This document shows, piece by piece, positions 39,089-48,199 of a stretch of 64,000 nt of DNA (its first letter is position 1; the number at the start of each line of letters is the position of its first letter). Under the pieces are notes generated by a model. It worked only from the letters and a program-made list of their open reading frames with translations. It ran no database searches and was not told the origin of the DNA. Both the position numbers and the translations under genes were made by a program. The stretch covers positions 1,364,001-1,428,000 of the forward strand of contig NZ_CP141615.1 of NCBI RefSeq assembly GCF_035593305.1, in the 5' to 3' direction. The stretch is from Limnochorda sp. L945t (GTDB lineage: Bacteria > Bacillota > Limnochordia > Limnochordales > Geochordaceae).

Positions 39089-40153
<1,065 letters not shown>

Positions 40154-40216: not shown

Positions 40217-40606
40217 TCAGCCCCCCAGGCTCAGCGGCCAGGGCTGCGGTAGAAGGGTCATCATCAGCGCCGCACCCGCGAGCGCCAGATTCTTGAAGAA
40301 GTTGGTCTGCTCGCCCATGCGGGCCATGGGGTCCGGCACAGCCCAGTAGCTGTGCATCCAGAAGGCCACCACCACCAGGAAGATCACGATGAGGCCGAGG
40401 CCCACCGTGGGCAAGTAACCCAAGAGCACACTCAGCCCGCCGGCAAGCAGCATGAGCCCTGTACCGATCACGGCGGCCTCGGGTGCCGCCACTCCTTTGG
40501 ATCGCGCGTAGCCGGCCATGGACGAGACGTTGCGGAAGTGGTTGAACGCGTTCAGGATGAAAAAGCCACCGTAGATGATCCGGCCGATGAGGAACACGAT
40601 GTCCAC
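40217..40606 (-). CDS. DoxX-family membrane protein (CatD-like)
   Basis: A 129-residue protein with four membrane helices and the DoxX pattern FLIGRIIYGGFFILNAFNHF. I chose GTG 40606, 7 nt after GGAGGG. In B. subtilis the DoxX protein CatD is cotranscribed with the VOC dioxygenase CatE and helps against quinones and catechols. Here a CatE-like VOC gene and an HxlR regulator with the redox Cys are close by, which suggests a similar role. Confidence 0.85.
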   Translation of the reverse strand: MDIVFLIGRIIYGGFFILNAFNHFRNVSSMAGYARSKGVAAPEAAVIGTGLMLLAGGLSVLLGYLPTVGLGLIVIFLVVVAFWMHSYWAVPDPMARMGEQTNFFKNLALAGAALMMTLLPQPWPLSLGG

Positions 40607-40764
40607 CGATGCACCCTCCTCGTTGGGACCCGACCTGCTCCATAGGGTTCCATGCAATCACCCGACTCGCTTTGCCGGGTATCCACTGAGAACCATCCCA
40701 CCGTCCAGGCTGGCTTTCCCCCGTTCATCACCTCCCCATGGAGGCCGTTGCTGCATCGACGGCA

Positions 40765-40788
40765 GCCCCGGCCTATCTGGGCCGGGGC
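40765..40788 (-). terminator. Hairpin after the HxlR gene
   Basis: GCCCCGGCC (40765-40773) and GGCCGGGGC (40780-40788) form a perfect 9-bp stem with a 6-nt loop, 10 bp beyond the stop of the HxlR gene. No T-tract follows. Confidence 0.45.
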
Positions 40789-40798
40789 CACTGGCCCC

Positions 40799-41257
40799 TC
40801 ATCGCGCAGCGCCTCGCCGCTCCCGCCGAACCCGGCCTCGCGGTTCGCTCGACCGGCGCGCCACTCGCGCGCCCGGCGGGCCGGTCCCGGGGGTCGTCGC
40901 AGGTGCGGTCACAGAGGCAGCCTCGAGCCAGCGCTGCGCCCACCGATGCACTTCGGCCACTACGGAGCGCAGGTCCTCGCCCTTGGGCGTCAGGGCATAC
41001 TCGACCAGCACGGGCCGGCTGGGCACGACCCGTCGCTCGACGATGCCCTGCTGCTCCAGCTCCCGAAGCCGCCGGGCCAGCTGCGGGTCCTTGAGACCCG
41101 GCACGGCTGCCCGGATCTCACAAAACCGCCGGGCGCCTGCCATCAGCGCCTCTATGATGGCCCCGTTCCAGCGCCGGCCGATGAGCTCGACGGCCTGGTG
41201 GTACAGGGAGCACACCCGAAAGGTAGATGGCGAAGACCGACTTCTGACCGGTGCCAC
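40799..41257 (-). CDS. HxlR/DUF24-family transcriptional regulator with YodB-type cysteine
   Basis: A 152-residue winged-helix regulator: VELIGRRWNGAIIEALMAG, CEIRAAVPGLKDPQLARRLRELEQQGIVER and EYALTPKGEDL are classic HxlR features. Cys16 precedes GRRW by 11 residues, exactly as the sensing Cys6 of B. subtilis YodB precedes its GKRW. This suggests thiol-based sensing of quinones or diamide. The start is the second GTG (41257), spaced 8 nt from GGAG. C-terminal about 25 residues are Arg-rich and not conserved. It is divergent from nothing; an inverted repeat sits just upstream of it. Confidence 0.9.
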   Translation of the reverse strand: MAPVRSRSSPSTFRVCSLYHQAVELIGRRWNGAIIEALMAGARRFCEIRAAVPGLKDPQLARRLRELEQQGIVERRVVPSRPVLVEYALTPKGEDLRSVVAEVHRWAQRWLEAASVTAPATTPGTGPPGARVARRSSEPRGRVRRERRGAAR

Positions 41258-41280
41258 GCTCACTTCTCCTTGAAAACATA

Positions 41281-41297
41281 CTAACACAAACTTAGCA
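41281..41297 (-). promoter_or_regulatory. Candidate operator upstream of the HxlR gene
   Basis: CTAA-N7-TTAG on the minus strand within an AT-rich stretch just before the ribosome site. YodB/CatR operators have a similar form with short arms and a 7-nt spacer, so this may be an autoregulatory site. The TAGTAT next to it could be a -10 box. Confidence 0.4.
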
Positions 41298-41328
41298 CCA
41301 TGGCCACCACCGCACACCCTGGTTGCTT

Positions 41329-41386
41329 GTCGCTCCGTCCCCCGAGAGCCTCCGGCGGGGCCGGGAGCCCGCTACCGAGGAGCGAC
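41329..41386 (-). terminator. Long GC-rich stem downstream of the flavin reductase gene
   Basis: GTCGCTCC (41329-41336) pairs with GGAGCGAC (41379-41386), enclosing a second possible GGC/GCC-rich stem. It lies about 50 bp after the stop of the minus-strand flavin reductase gene. No T-tract. Confidence 0.3.
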
Positions 41387-41435
41387 CACGGACGCGGGCG
41401 CCTCATCCTCGACGGTTGCCGAGCCTTTCGGCGCT

Positions 41436-41909
41436 TCATGCCAGGAGCTCCCGGTATCGGCCGCCGAAGAAGACCAGCGGCGCACCGTCCCCGTGGGTCT
41501 GCGCCTCCTCGACGCGGGCCACGAAGATGGTGTGATCGCCGCCGGGATAGGCTGCCAAGACCGAGCACTCGAAGTGGGCCAGCGCCCCCTCGATGAGCGG
41601 CACCCCGGTCTTGCCCGCCCGCAGCTGCACCGCCCCGTCGGGCAAGCGGTCGAGCCGGCCGGCGAAAAACTCCGAGACGGCCTGCTGCCGTGCGCTCAGG
41701 ACGCTCACGCCGAACTGCCCCTCGCGGGCGATGCGATCATGGGTCTCCCTCTGCGTGCCGACGCAGACGAGTACCAGAGGCGGCTCCAGGGAGACCGAGG
41801 TGAACGAATTGGCCGTCATGCCGTGCGGCCGATCGACCGATCCTGTCGTGACCACCGTGACCCCGGTGGCGAAACGCCCCGCCGCTTGCCGAAACGAGCT
41901 GGAGTCCAA
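41436..41909 (-). CDS. Flavin reductase domain protein
   Basis: A 157-residue FMN-binding split-barrel protein: FRQAAGRFATGVTVVTT, GMTANSFTSVSLEPPLVLVCV and AHFECSVLAAYPGGDHTIFVARV are the family blocks. It reduces FMN with NAD(P)H, usually for a partner monooxygenase. The start is TTG 41909 with GAGGGGG 7 nt upstream; the frame further upstream has no similarity. It diverges from the VOC gene, sharing the AT-rich region with the 42030-42050 inverted repeat. Confidence 0.88.
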   Translation of the reverse strand: MDSSSFRQAAGRFATGVTVVTTGSVDRPHGMTANSFTSVSLEPPLVLVCVGTQRETHDRIAREGQFGVSVLSARQQAVSEFFAGRLDRLPDGAVQLRAGKTGVPLIEGALAHFECSVLAAYPGGDHTIFVARVEEAQTHGDGAPLVFFGGRYRELLA

Positions 41910-42029
41910 GTCCGGTCCCCCTCGGCTCGCCACGAGTCCTGGACGGTGTACCCGCGTGCCGGGGCGGTTTGCCACCCGAACCGTCGAGCACCCGGTTTGC
42001 GAGGCTCGCAGGACCCATGTAGCGATTGC

Positions 42030-42050
42030 TTATCATATGTTATATGCTAA
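42030..42050. promoter_or_regulatory. AT-rich inverted repeat in the divergent promoter region
   Basis: Arms TTATCATAT (42030-42038) and ATATGCTAA (42042-42050) around GTT match at 8 of 9 positions; the inner CATAT/ATATG is perfect. It is an island of AT in GC-rich DNA, 52 bp before the VOC start and 120 bp before the flavin reductase start. It has the size of a MarR or HxlR operator and could control both genes. Confidence 0.5.
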
Positions 42051-42102
42051 CTCAGAGCTAGCCGGCGCACCAGTCGACCGGTGCGCGTGGAGGAGGATGG
42101 CG

Positions 42103-43095
42103 ATGCATCCCCATACCCGCCTGGGCTGGGTACACCTGAGCGTGGCGGACCTGGACCGCTCGCGGGCGTTCTACGAAGGTGTCCTGGGCCTTCAGGTACT
42201 GCGCGTCGCACCGGGCTTTGCGGCCATGGGGGTGCGGGCAGGTGACGGCGCGGAGGTGCCCATCGTCCTTCTCTCGCACCAGCCGCATGCGCGGCCCAAG
42301 CCACCCCGCTGCCGGGGGCTGTACCACCTGGCCCTGCGGCTCCCGTCCCGGCAAGCACTTGCCCGCGCCGTGATGCGGCTGGCCCACGACGGGTATGCCA
42401 TCGACGGAGCCGCCGACCACTGGGTGAGCGAGGCGGTCTACCTGTCGGATCCCGACGGCCACGGCATCGAGCTGTACGCAGACCGGCCCCGTGAGCAGTG
42501 GCCCCGGCAGGGTGACCGCATCCTGATGGGCACCCAACCGCTCGACTGGGACGGCCTCGTCGCCGAGCTTCCGCCCGAGGAGCGCCGGCCGGCGGCAGAC
42601 GACGGTCTTGCCCCACGCACCTTCCCGGGCCCCCATGGCGACGGGATGCCGCCCGGCACCCGGCTGGGGCACATCCATCTGCATGTCTCGCGCCTGGAGC
42701 GGGCCGAGCGGTTTTATCGGGACGTCCTGGGCCTTGACCTGGTGCTGCGCTACGGTGGCAGCGCCCTGTTCTTCTCTGCCGGCGGCTACCACCACCACGT
42801 GGGGGCCAACATCTGGGCCGGCCGCGAGGCACCGCCTCCGCCCCCGGACTCCGTGCAGCTTCTCCACTTCGCCTTCGTGGTACCGTCCGTGCAGGACGTG
42901 GCGGCCCTGGCTCGGCGCCTCGAGCAGGCGGGAGTGCCGCATGGCTCGCTGGCGGACCTGGGGCCGGAGGCCCTCGCGTCGGTGGCGCCGGCGGGGCCGT
43001 CGACCGGCGGATTCGTCACCCACGACGAGGACGGCGTGGCCGTCGCCGTGCTGGGCGGCGAAGGCCACTTCGGCGAAGGGAGCGAAGGCAGATGA
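42103..43095 (+). CDS. Two-domain VOC protein, catechol-2,3-dioxygenase-like (CatE-like)
   Basis: A 330-residue protein with two VOC (glyoxalase/extradiol dioxygenase) domains, about 5-125 and 180-325. The first has LGWVHLSVADLDRSRAFYEGVLGL, LYHLALRLP and YLSDPDGHGIELYADRP; the second LGHIHLHVSRLERAERFYRDVLGL and LLHFAFVVP. His and Glu metal ligands are present in the pattern. The layout is that of B. subtilis CatE. ATG 42103 is 6 nt after AGGAGG. It overlaps the next gene by ATGA. Confidence 0.88.
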   Translation: MHPHTRLGWVHLSVADLDRSRAFYEGVLGLQVLRVAPGFAAMGVRAGDGAEVPIVLLSHQPHARPKPPRCRGLYHLALRLPSRQALARAVMRLAHDGYAIDGAADHWVSEAVYLSDPDGHGIELYADRPREQWPRQGDRILMGTQPLDWDGLVAELPPEERRPAADDGLAPRTFPGPHGDGMPPGTRLGHIHLHVSRLERAERFYRDVLGLDLVLRYGGSALFFSAGGYHHHVGANIWAGREAPPPPPDSVQLLHFAFVVPSVQDVAALARRLEQAGVPHGSLADLGPEALASVAPAGPSTGGFVTHDEDGVAVAVLGGEGHFGEGSEGR

Positions 43096-43760
43096 CGGGC
43101 ACCGAGAGGGTAGAGTTGGAGTTCTTCCATGACGTGCTGTGTGCGTGGTGCTACGCGCTGGCGCCTCGGGTGCGCCGGCTGGCCGAGCAATACCCCCAGG
43201 TACGGGTCGTTCACCGGGCCTTCGCCCTGGCACCCACGCCCGAGAGCATCCCGGCCATGTTCGGTTCCAAGGAGGCGGGCAAGCAGGAGATCCTGTCCCA
43301 CTGGCGGGCTGCCAACCGCAACGACGACGAGCATCGCATCAACGCCGACCTGATGGCCTCCCGCCCCTTCGACTACCCCTACTCGATGCCAGGGCTCGTG
43401 GCCTGCAAGGCCGCCGAGCTGCAGGGCGGGCAGGAGGCGCATGGGGCCATGTTCGACCGGGTGCAGCGCGCGCACCTCACCGAATGCCTCGACATCACCG
43501 ACTTCGAGGTGCTGCGCCAGTGCGCACAGGACGTAGGACTGGACGTGGCCCGCTGGGAGCAGGATTTTCACGCACCGGGTACCCGGGACGAGGTGGCGCG
43601 GGACCTAGGCCGGGCACGGCTTTACGGCATCACCGGCGTGCCCACGCTGGTCGTGGACCACACGTACGGACTGACGGGAGCTCAAAGCTACGAGCGCCTC
43701 GAGGCCTGGCTGGAAGGCGTACTGCAGCAGCGGGCATCCCGCAGATCGGCACCGATGTAA
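43092..43760 (+). CDS. DsbA/FrnE-family oxidoreductase
   Basis: A 222-residue thioredoxin-fold protein of the DsbA/2-hydroxychromene isomerase group. The active site is CAWC (C17, C20) in HDVLCAWCYALAPRV, and the cis-proline is in GITGVPTLVVD. No signal peptide is seen, so it acts in the cytoplasm like FrnE of Deinococcus. It may repair or reduce thiols modified by electrophiles. Cotranscribed with the VOC gene (4-bp overlap) and the following unknown gene (15 bp). Confidence 0.9.
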   Translation: MTGTERVELEFFHDVLCAWCYALAPRVRRLAEQYPQVRVVHRAFALAPTPESIPAMFGSKEAGKQEILSHWRAANRNDDEHRINADLMASRPFDYPYSMPGLVACKAAELQGGQEAHGAMFDRVQRAHLTECLDITDFEVLRQCAQDVGLDVARWEQDFHAPGTRDEVARDLGRARLYGITGVPTLVVDHTYGLTGAQSYERLEAWLEGVLQQRASRRSAPM

Positions 43761-43775
43761 ACAGGAGGGGAGACC

Positions 43776-44192
43776 ATGGCCTTTTACGTGGTGCGAGCCC
43801 GACCCGACCCGCAGCGCCTCGCAGAGCTTCGCGCCAGGCTGGATTCGGGAGCCTTCGTAAAGTTGCGGCCCTTCGGCGAGGCGCTGACCGCATCCCTCGA
43901 GGGGGCCCGACGCGATCCGCAAACCGGCGAGGCGGTCTGGGAGGAAGAGGACTACTGCTCGCCGCCGCTGGCCATGGAGCGCGAGGCGGTGCTGGACCGA
44001 TACTTCACGAATATGGTGGCGGAGCCGGTGAAGCAAGGTGAGGGCTGGGCCCGCATCGCACACCTGCCCTCGCTGTGGGCACAGGCCCCTCTGCGACCGG
44101 AGGCGCCCGTTTCGTCCGGAGAGTCTCTCGGGCTGATCATGGCCGAGGACGCCGGGCTGGTCTGCGACTGGCAGACACGGAATTGCGGCTGA
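43776..44192 (+). CDS. Unknown protein cotranscribed with the VOC and DsbA-like genes
   Basis: A 138-residue soluble protein that I do not recognise. It begins MAFYVVRARPDPQRLAELRA, has an acidic middle (EEEDYCSPPLAMEREAVLD) and ends with two cysteines (DAGLVCDWQTRNCG). It has a strong ribosome site (AGGAGGGGAG) and follows the DsbA-like gene by 15 bp, so it is a real gene of the same operon. Amino acid composition is normal for a folded alpha/beta protein. The cysteines could be substrates of the DsbA-like partner. No function is proposed. Confidence 0.75.
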   Translation: MAFYVVRARPDPQRLAELRARLDSGAFVKLRPFGEALTASLEGARRDPQTGEAVWEEEDYCSPPLAMEREAVLDRYFTNMVAEPVKQGEGWARIAHLPSLWAQAPLRPEAPVSSGESLGLIMAEDAGLVCDWQTRNCG

Positions 44193-44360: not shown

Positions 44361-45755
44361 TCAGGAACGCTCCGATGCGGTCACATGGGTCTCTCGTTCG
44401 AGGGCGTCGGCCACCTCGTGCCACCGGGCCGAAAGATCGTCGAGAAACCGGGCCCGGTCGGCTGCGAGAACGGCCTCCGCCCCTGGGTGCGTGGGCCGGG
44501 CGCCGGACTCGGCCACCATCTCCCGCAGCGCGGCCGGGTTGTCGATGATGGGGCACGGCGCGTAGTGGTTGGAGGAAAACGGGATGCGCCGCTGGTACGC
44601 CGCGAAGAGGGGACTCTTGAGGGCATCGACGAGCGAGACCTCGTTGATGTTGTGCGTCGCGAAGTGCGCAAACGCGCAGGGTTCCGCGTCGCCGTTCGGC
44701 GTGATGTGCAAGTACAGGCGGGCCCCGGCGATGCACCCTTGCGTGAAGTGCCCATCGTTCCAGAAGTCCGCGATGAAGATGGGCCGCGTGGCACGAAGCT
44801 CGTTGACCCGCCGGACGAGCCAGGCCCGCTGGTGCGGTTTGACCATGAGGTCGAGATCGGCCTCCGGGCCGACGGGCACGTAGTGGAAGCTCCACAAGTA
44901 CGCGACGCCCTTGTCGATGAGAAAGTCGATGAAGGCATCGGAGAAGAGCGTCTCGGCGTTGCGGCTCGTCACCGTGACCGACGCGCCGAAGATGACGCCC
45001 CGCTCCCGCAGCCGATCCATCGCGGCCATGACCTTGTCGAACACGCCGGCGCCCCGTCGCTCGTCGGTCTCCTCTTTCCACCCCTCCAGGCTGATGGCCG
45101 GCGAGAAGTTGCCCAGCTCGGCCAGCCGGTCGGCCACCTGGTCGGTGATCAGGGTACCGTTGGTATACGCCATGAAGGTCGCGTCGGTGTGGCGAGCCAC
45201 CACGTCGAGCAGTGGCTTGTAAGCGAAAGGCTCGCCTCCCGACAGCACGAACCAGTAGATTCCGAGCTCCTTGGCCTCTCGCAGAAGGCTGTCGAAGCGC
45301 TCCCGGGAAAGACTCGGGCCTCTGTCGTACCCCGCGGCCCAGCAGCCTTTGCAGCGCAGGTTGCAGGCAGACGTGGGGTCGATGAGCAAAAACGTCGGAA
45401 CGTGCACTCCATGGCGCTGCTCTGCGTGCCGCCTCTCCGAGGGTGCCAGCAGCAGCTGCTGGATTCCCCAGTTGACCGCCAGCCGTTTCACCATGGTCCG
45501 GTTGCTCAGCAACTGCCGGGCCCTTGCCCGGATGGCCGGATCACCGGTCACCCGCCGGCGAAAGGCCAGGTACTTCTCCCGATCCCCCGGATCCCGCACA
45601 AAGTGCCCGACGGCGTCCAGGAGCCGGTCCAATCTCGCCGCAGGATCGGGCATCAGGTAGGCCACGGCGGCGTCGACGGCCGCCTCTGCCGCCCGCCGGG
45701 CGACGGCAAGTTGCACCTCACTCCACCACGACGACCCGTTGACGGTACCTGCCAT
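44361..45755 (-). CDS. Radical SAM protein with SPASM-like C-terminal cysteines
   Basis: A 464-residue protein. After a helical N-terminal extension of about 115 residues comes the radical SAM motif C131-NLR-C135-KG-C138, then FVLSGGEPF and AYTNGTLIT. The C-terminal part has GCIAGARLYLHITPNGDAEPCAF and PCPIIDN, cysteines that could hold an auxiliary cluster as in SPASM/HpnH-like proteins. Substrate unknown. It follows a GT4 gene by 39 bp, so the pair may modify a glycolipid or cell-envelope compound. ATG with GGGG upstream. Confidence 0.87.
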   Translation of the reverse strand: MAGTVNGSSWWSEVQLAVARRAAEAAVDAAVAYLMPDPAARLDRLLDAVGHFVRDPGDREKYLAFRRRVTGDPAIRARARQLLSNRTMVKRLAVNWGIQQLLLAPSERRHAEQRHGVHVPTFLLIDPTSACNLRCKGCWAAGYDRGPSLSRERFDSLLREAKELGIYWFVLSGGEPFAYKPLLDVVARHTDATFMAYTNGTLITDQVADRLAELGNFSPAISLEGWKEETDERRGAGVFDKVMAAMDRLRERGVIFGASVTVTSRNAETLFSDAFIDFLIDKGVAYLWSFHYVPVGPEADLDLMVKPHQRAWLVRRVNELRATRPIFIADFWNDGHFTQGCIAGARLYLHITPNGDAEPCAFAHFATHNINEVSLVDALKSPLFAAYQRRIPFSSNHYAPCPIIDNPAALREMVAESGARPTHPGAEAVLAADRARFLDDLSARWHEVADALERETHVTASERS

Positions 45756-47512: not shown

Positions 47513-48199
47513 TTATGCCGCGATTTCCGGTAGTGGCGGCGTTCTCTCGCTCTCACTCCCCGTGTTTTCTCGTCGCGCGGCGTAGGGCTTGGCCATCGAC
47601 CCCTGGCTGAAGTAAAGCCGAGCGGCCATCCACTCCTCGTGCTGCTCCTGGAGGACCGCCCCGATCAGGCGCAGCGCTGCCTCGGCGTTCGGCAAGATGC
47701 CGACCACGTCGGTGCGCCGCCCGATCTCCCGGTTGAGTCGCTCCAGCGGGTTGGTCGAGTGAATCTGCCGCCAGTGCTCCGGGGGAAAGGCCATGTAGGC
47801 CAGCACGTCGTCCGCGGCCTCGAGCAGCCACTCGGCCGCCTTGGGAAACCGTCGGCCGATGTTGTCGACCACTGTCTCCAGCTGCTCCCGGGCCAGCGCG
47901 CCGTCCGGCTGTACGAAGATAGTGCGCACCAGAGCCCGCACCATGGCCTGGGCCTGCTTGGGCGCTTGGGCCAGGATGTTGCGCATCAAGTGCACCCGGC
48001 ACCGCTGCCAGCTGGCCCCGGCCAGGATCTCTTGGATGGCCCGCTTGAGGCCTTCGTGGGCATCCGAGATGACCAACTGCACCCCTTTCAGCCCACGGTG
48101 CACCAGATGGCGCAGGAACTCGCTCCAGAACTCGTAGCTCTCCGTCTAGCCAATGGCGTAGCCCAGCACCTCCCGCTCGCCCGTCTCCCGTACCCCGAT
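47513..48199 (-). pseudogene. Remnant of an IS256-family transposase
   Basis: The C-terminal half of a Mutator/IS256 transposase is intact: GLKGVQLVISDAHEGLKRAI, WQRCRVHLMRNILAQ, STNPLERLNREIGRRTDVVG and GAVLQEQHEEWM. Upstream the frame continues as GVRETGEREVLGYAIG, then a TAG stop (48148-48146), then TESYEFWSEFLRHL. The N-terminal half, with the DNA-binding region and first catalytic Asp, is missing beyond about 48199. The element is therefore dead. Confidence 0.85.

Follow-up and report, generated by a model that had tools for sequence, protein, structure and literature searches.

The regulons of YodB, CatR and QsrR and the thiol-dependent ring-cleavage dioxygenases have been described previously (PMC6798810, PMC6212828). 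YodB forms an intersubunit disulfide using C-terminal cysteines, and QsrR has been reported to sense through S-alkylation of its N-terminal Cys5 (PMC6798810). Therefore, a C-terminal partner cysteine is not a defining trait of the whole YodB/CatR/QsrR group. We analysed a 64-kb window (positions 1,364,001 to 1,428,000 of contig NZ_CP141615.1) of the 3.31-Mb single-contig genome of Limnochorda sp. L945t, in which a sequence-only reading had singled out the interval 40217-44192 as an electrophile-stress locus resembling catDE and YodB, with an added DsbA-like protein and an unannotated protein. In our reading, the locus is likely to be of the YodB/CatR-CatDE type, autoregulated and serving quinone/electrophile detoxification, with new accessory thiol proteins added. 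The two additions, the DsbA-like protein and the unannotated protein, recur elsewhere, beside redox or quinone-handling genes in unrelated microbes. The features of the locus, in coordinates of the 64-kb window, are as follows (G402 denotes a genome from another family of the same order, the locus of which was used for comparison).

39089-40153, minus strand: LLM-class flavin monooxygenase (TIGR03858; 519 bits against a cut-off of 462), beyond the interval of the sequence-only reading.
40217-40606, minus strand: DoxX-family membrane protein, CatD-like (PF07681, E=6e-9).
40799-41257, minus strand: HxlR/DUF24 regulator of the YodB subtype (PF01638, E=3e-27), with Cys16 (codon 41210-41212) and Cys46.
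41281-41295, minus strand: candidate operator A, CTAAGTTTGTGTTAG, directly upstream of hxlR; the 15-mer of G402 with 3 mismatches.
41436-41975, minus strand: flavin reductase (PF01613, E=1.5e-45), with an uncertain start codon and the domain beginning from about 41912.
42047-42061, minus strand: candidate operator B, CTAGCTCTGAGTTAG, located between the flavin reductase gene and the putative VOC-DsbA-unannotated operon.
42097-43095, plus strand: two-domain VOC protein of the CatE-like ring-cleavage dioxygenase type (two PF00903 modules, E=6e-30).
43092-43760, plus strand: cytoplasmic FrnE/DsbA-like thiol oxidoreductase (PF01323, E=1.5e-24), active site C17-A-W-C20.
43776-44192, plus strand: 138-aa protein of an unannotated family, with the motif VWEEEDYCxPPLAxER, Cys61 and a C-terminal CX6CG tail (Cys130, Cys137).

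The six genes named in the sequence-only reading (those for DoxX, HxlR, flavin reductase, VOC, the DsbA-like protein and the unannotated protein) lie where it had placed them, and profile matches confirmed their families; the extent that it gave to the unit was too short, as the LLM monooxygenase gene had been left out. Because the VOC and DsbA genes share an ATGA overlap at 43092-43095, and because the unannotated gene, preceded by an AGGAGGG motif, starts 15 bases past the DsbA stop codon, these three genes very probably form one operon. On the other side, the LLM monooxygenase gene follows doxX by 63 bases on the same strand and probably ends the transcription unit of hxlR and doxX, a membership that we only infer because the G402 locus has no LLM gene. 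The flavin reductase gene sits between hxlR and the VOC gene. The same seven genes are present, at 98-100% identity, in the metagenome-assembled genome (MAG) Limnochordaceae bacterium Bu05. A scan for promoter and terminator consensus sequences gave no result above shuffles, and Rfam and tRNA searches gave no match within the locus.

Like Bacillus subtilis catDE with YodB/CatR and the Staphylococcus aureus QsrR regulon, the locus combines a DUF24/HxlR regulator that has a YodB-spaced N-terminal cysteine with DoxX-like and two-domain CatE-like proteins. A further likeness is that an FMN-linked monooxygenase and flavin enzymes belong to the QsrR regulon (PMC6798810). In contrast to these systems, doxX and the VOC gene lie on opposite strands flanking hxlR, the candidate operator has the form CTAR-N7-TTAG, and the locus adds a FrnE-like DsbA and the unannotated protein; it has neither an azoreductase nor a nitroreductase, and its regulator lacks the C-terminal cysteine.

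The arrangement in G402 identifies the core of this locus as a conserved unit. There, genes for DsbA (76% identical) and VOC (68%) are contiguous with, and divergent from, genes for HxlR (64%) and DoxX (74%), and the whole stands at a different chromosomal place, adjoining nusG and rplK. The arrangement shows DoxX, HxlR, VOC and DsbA travelling together, and this comparative evidence supports their assignment to one putative functional unit. In three other members of the phylum (L073, L086 and L088), hxlR is divergent from a CatE-like VOC gene, and plasmids of Deinococcus and Paenibacillus carry MarR-DoxX-VOC or DoxX-VOC orders. The sequence-only reading had proposed that co-occurrence of the VOC-DsbA-unannotated trio be checked: the exact trio was found only in this species, whereas pairs drawn from it were found elsewhere, two of the three kinds in company with DoxX or HxlR. 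A copy in G398, a genome of the same family, was set aside as further evidence of conservation; its hxlR is truncated, with integrase-like sequence after it. In that copy (L109:1745-2900), DoxX is 94% identical, and the VOC, DsbA and unannotated genes are not there.

The G402 hxlR gene is preceded by a palindromic, operator-like 15-mer, CTAGCTTTATGTTAG. When this sequence alone was searched in the window with up to 3 mismatches, it matched at four places, a total that none of 100 shuffles reached (0.07 matches expected). Two of these matches fall in the locus, at 41281-41295 and 42047-42061; these are candidate sites A and B, both near-palindromes of the form CTAR-N7-TTAG. A pattern combining the three sites has exact matches only at A and B genome-wide, but it was built from those sites. 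With up to 3 mismatches, the combined pattern matched 54 places genome-wide against 136 for the reversed control, so that only exact or G402-derived operator matching is meaningful. The shared candidate sites are good, but not final, evidence that the genes make up one regulon. Although doxX lies beside hxlR, as in G402, it is on the strand opposite to the VOC gene, and it is from candidate sites A and B that we infer the co-regulation of doxX and the VOC gene.

The genome has a single PF01638 protein, this HxlR regulator, whose best solved relative is YodB (5hs7, E=7e-24). The sequence-only reading had placed Cys16 at the spacing of YodB Cys6, and the alignment to 5hs7 agrees: Cys16 stands 11 residues ahead of the G in GRRW, aligned with Cys6. 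Both Cys16 and Cys46 (RRFCEIR), the only other cysteine of the protein, are kept in the G402 orthologue, so that the loss of Cys16 from orthologues, which had been named as grounds for rejecting the reading, was not observed there. Of 36 loci tried, 15 lacked a sequence readable with the search pattern; in the 21 HxlR proteins left, which come from within and outside the phylum, we surveyed cysteine spacing. An N-terminal cysteine lies 13 or 14 residues before the conserved tryptophan in 19 of the 21. A spacing of 14 with G[KR][KR]W[NT]G marks a YodB-like subtype, which includes the window protein, and a spacing of 13 marks an HxlR/HypR-like subtype. Cys16 is thus a family trait and no proof of quinone sensing, and we dropped it, taken alone, as the mark of a quinone sensor; the position claimed for it stands, and its special significance does not.

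The VOC protein is full-length and two-domain, and it is mostly 38-50% identical to proteins that are paired with DoxX or with HxlR/MarR in several genomes. Residues H77, H108, E125, H192, H194 and H232-234 are conserved in 98-100% of 46 aligned sequences, as expected for a working metal-dependent enzyme of the CatE type; the iron ligands and the substrate are presumed from this likeness. A related operon in Thermoflexus encodes an MhqE-like VOC protein, a PF17648 protein, a CatE-like VOC protein (46% identical to the window protein), DoxX (about 50%) and a tailed form of the unannotated protein (about 60%). We take the first of these to be MhqE-like from its sequence resemblance, Pfam giving Glyoxalase only. 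Compared with the window locus, this operon has no HxlR or FrnE-like DsbA, and the MhqE-like and PF17648 genes are extra.

The best solved relative of the DsbA-like protein is FrnE (5cnw, E=2e-16), followed by the UPF0413 protein GK0824 (E=2e-13), a match considered in asking whether the protein might be an SpxH/YjbH-type ClpXP adaptor of Spx proteolysis. The alignment shows CAWC and the cis-Pro loop GVPTL, and no signal peptide was seen. The protein thus resembles Deinococcus radiodurans FrnE and the DsbA of allicin-resistance islands in its DsbA fold, CXXC motif and cis-Pro loop, and in the link to thiol stress. Neither the window protein nor its nearest relatives in the alignment have the FrnE-type C-terminal CX4C tail (CGxDGC), whereas three more distant FrnE-like proteins (of Enterobacter, Streptomyces and the genome G135) end in it; the window protein is more similar to proteins of Vibrio and roseobacters.

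The neighbours of these Vibrio and roseobacter proteins, which are 35-42% identical to the window protein, were compared case by case, the counts being small. On a Vibrio coralliilyticus plasmid, the DsbA relative directly follows a YqjG-type glutathionyl-hydroquinone reductase, and on a Ruegeria plasmid it lies one gene downstream of another; these reductases match 3r3e (E=2e-65 and 4e-107, respectively). In three Vibrio records, of which two share the same proteins, an FMN_red-type reductase precedes it; in Roseovarius, WrbA does. A LysR gene lies ahead in all of these, and in Methylobacterium the DsbA relative stands alone behind LysR. Unlike the window locus, these groups use LysR rather than HxlR, some have a glutathione-based partner enzyme, and they contain no CatE, DoxX or unannotated protein. 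The distant FrnE-like proteins of Streptomyces and G135 adjoin an HxlR gene and a flavodoxin-fold reductase (that of G135 being read from sequence). A Pontibacter relative beside a Mn-catalase and a Haloarcula protein are exceptions. In the literature that we searched for a link between the DsbA family and operons of quinone or glutathionyl-hydroquinone reductases, we found no description of one.

Searches of Pfam, NCBIfam and PDB sequences gave no match for the 138-aa protein. Its family occurs at 58 GTDB loci, from Chloroflexota, Deinococcota, Armatimonadota, Acidobacteria, Gemmatimonadetes, Proteobacteria and Archaea, and also on plasmids of Thermus thermophilus and haloarchaea; none of the other 397 genomes in the phylum sample has it, and neither do G402, G398, G353 and four others. 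A core of about 100 residues is strongly conserved, and all 45 members aligned share VWEEEDYCxPPL without change. The neighbours of the family are varied, leaning towards redox functions: MsrA, an aldo-keto reductase with MerR, and short-chain dehydrogenase/reductase (SDR) proteins. On two Thermus thermophilus megaplasmids (L002 and L065), the homologue has msrA as its neighbour, with cytochrome P460 and MarR genes close by; in T. thermophilus HB27, the homologue adjoining msrA is TT_RS10605. An archaeal MAG (L046:8001-8798) has the domain of this family fused to PF17648 'Luciferase', a Lujinxingiaceae MAG (L056:8001-8825) has it fused to a cupin, and in Halocatena a PF17648 gene directly adjoins the gene of this family.

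A C-terminal tail, CDxxxxxCG, is carried by seven members, namely those of this species, of RBS10-35 and of five Thermoflexus-type genomes, one of which has lost the first tail cysteine. We counted loci with at least 1.5 kb upstream and took as a neighbour any VOC, DoxX or DsbA relative with E<=1e-8 within 2.5 kb. Such a neighbour was present at 5/5 tailed loci against 0/50 untailed loci (Fisher p=3e-7), a contrast that carries less weight than the p value suggests because only three lineages are involved; L041 has a VOC match too weak (E=1e-6) to pass the cut-off. In RBS10-35, the gene is joined to a DsbA gene 75% identical to that of the window. At this junction (L013:7370-8330), the DsbA gene runs into the unannotated gene out of frame, and the DsbA end and the first 30 residues of the unannotated protein are missing, reflecting either a deletion or an assembly error.

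An AlphaFold model of the protein has an overall pLDDT of 84, with a confident core and a loose tail. The best Foldseek match of the model was ClcF (E=0.015), with VIA Z below 5, in a comparison that had dimeric alpha+beta barrel and ferredoxin-like proteins in view; the fold matches were weak, mixed and of a common ferredoxin-like type, and we did not use them as a clue to function. Several of these weak matches are small enzymes of aromatic-ring breakdown, which is a hint only.

How might these proteins act together? Quinones or similar thiol-reactive compounds would modify Cys16 of the HxlR repressor, which would then leave the two palindromic candidate operators, releasing hxlR-doxX-LLM monooxygenase in one direction, together with the flavin reductase gene and the VOC-DsbA-unannotated operon. 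The CatE-like VOC protein, judging from its family and its conserved residues of metal-ligand type, would open the ring of catechols or quinone-thiol adducts, and DoxX may support it at the membrane. The FrnE-like protein would reduce the disulfides or mixed disulfides made by the same chemicals; such mending of modified thiols has a precedent in FrnE-type DsbA. The unannotated protein is, speculatively, a stress-linked accessory, with Cys61 and the two-cysteine tail suggesting a partner of the locus enzymes in redox or adduct handling. A bolder and unlikely extension is that it represents an undescribed, widespread electrophile-stress family, the tailed form of which would serve the CatE-like enzyme or the tail-less FrnE-like DsbA as a dedicated redox partner, providing in trans the C-terminal thiol pair of FrnE.

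The electrophile/quinone assignment is supported by the YodB-subtype regulator, the G402 unit, the shared candidate operators, the Thermoflexus operons and the DsbA relatives beside quinone reductases. Parts of the sequence-only reading are weaker than stated: Cys16 is family-wide, the C-terminal partner cysteine of YodB is absent, and thiol repair by the DsbA-like protein stays a proposal with precedent. Several observations weigh against the assignment. No cysteine follows residue 46 of the HxlR protein, where YodB has the partner residues Cys101 and Cys108. The G402 locus contains no flavin reductase, LLM or unannotated gene, and the DsbA relatives of G431 and G436 (about 41% identity) have no adjoining quinone reductase. 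VOC proteins are functionally diverse and include glyoxalases, and one VOC module has the fosfomycin thiol transferase FosA as its closest solved sequence. Furthermore, HxlR itself, another regulator of the family, senses formaldehyde rather than quinones (PMC7835342). This last point, the glyoxalases and the SDR and aldo-keto reductases near relatives of the unannotated gene would fit a regulator that senses formaldehyde or another aldehyde and a locus that handles aldehyde stress; we regard this as highly improbable, since the Cys-to-Trp spacing of the window protein is 14, as in YodB, and not 13, and no formaldehyde-fixing genes of the hxlAB type were seen in the locus.

It is also unlikely, though less so, that the locus answers mainly thiosulfinate, disulfide or general thiol stress of the allicin or diamide type, with the VOC protein as a thiol-adduct or bacillithiol-dependent transferase. 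The FosA match fits such an enzyme, and an Enterobacter plasmid has the order Old Yellow Enzyme-DsbA-SDR, with a distant FrnE-like protein, which resembles allicin-resistance islands. Protection against allicin is described for FrnE-type DsbA, and protection against diamide for a member of the DsbA family (PMC7119367, PMC10715225); the island DsbA confers resistance by itself (PMC7119367). However, the VOC protein is of the full-length, two-domain CatE type with relatives that pair with DoxX or HxlR/MarR, and Thermoflexus pairs a CatE-like VOC protein with an MhqE-like dioxygenase. A more serious possibility, to which we still give less than even weight, is that a CatDE-type core of DoxX, HxlR, VOC and DsbA is real and that the flavin reductase, LLM and unannotated genes are chance neighbours. 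Their absence from the G402 copy suggests that they may be mere neighbours, and the unannotated family is found in varied company elsewhere and missing from the rest of the phylum sample. Against this, the unannotated gene closely follows the DsbA gene and is joined to a similar one in RBS10-35, tailed forms keep CatE/DoxX or DsbA company, and candidate operator B sits in the gap between the flavin reductase and VOC genes.

If the quinone/electrophile assignment holds, CatDE-type quinone-sensing detoxification would extend to Limnochordia. The neighbourhoods suggest that a distinct cytoplasmic DsbA group repeatedly accompanies quinone and hydroquinone-adduct reductases, with regulators that differ from case to case, and they give a testable functional context to a highly conserved unannotated family that ranges from Thermus and Chloroflexota to haloarchaea. 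To us, the most interesting leads are the pairing of DsbA with quinone reductases and the unannotated family, whose cysteine tail goes with a particular gene context.

A gene for a radical-SAM-type protein (CNLRCKGC motif) at 44361-45755 of the window faces the end of the unannotated gene, and a TIGR04053 radical SAM gene also lies near the Thermus homologue of that gene in L065. About 3 kb from the locus, the sequence at 47513-48103 reads as an IS256-type transposase fragment. The window further contains a bacterial class A RNase P RNA at 349-729 on the minus strand (Rfam RF00010, 289 bits).

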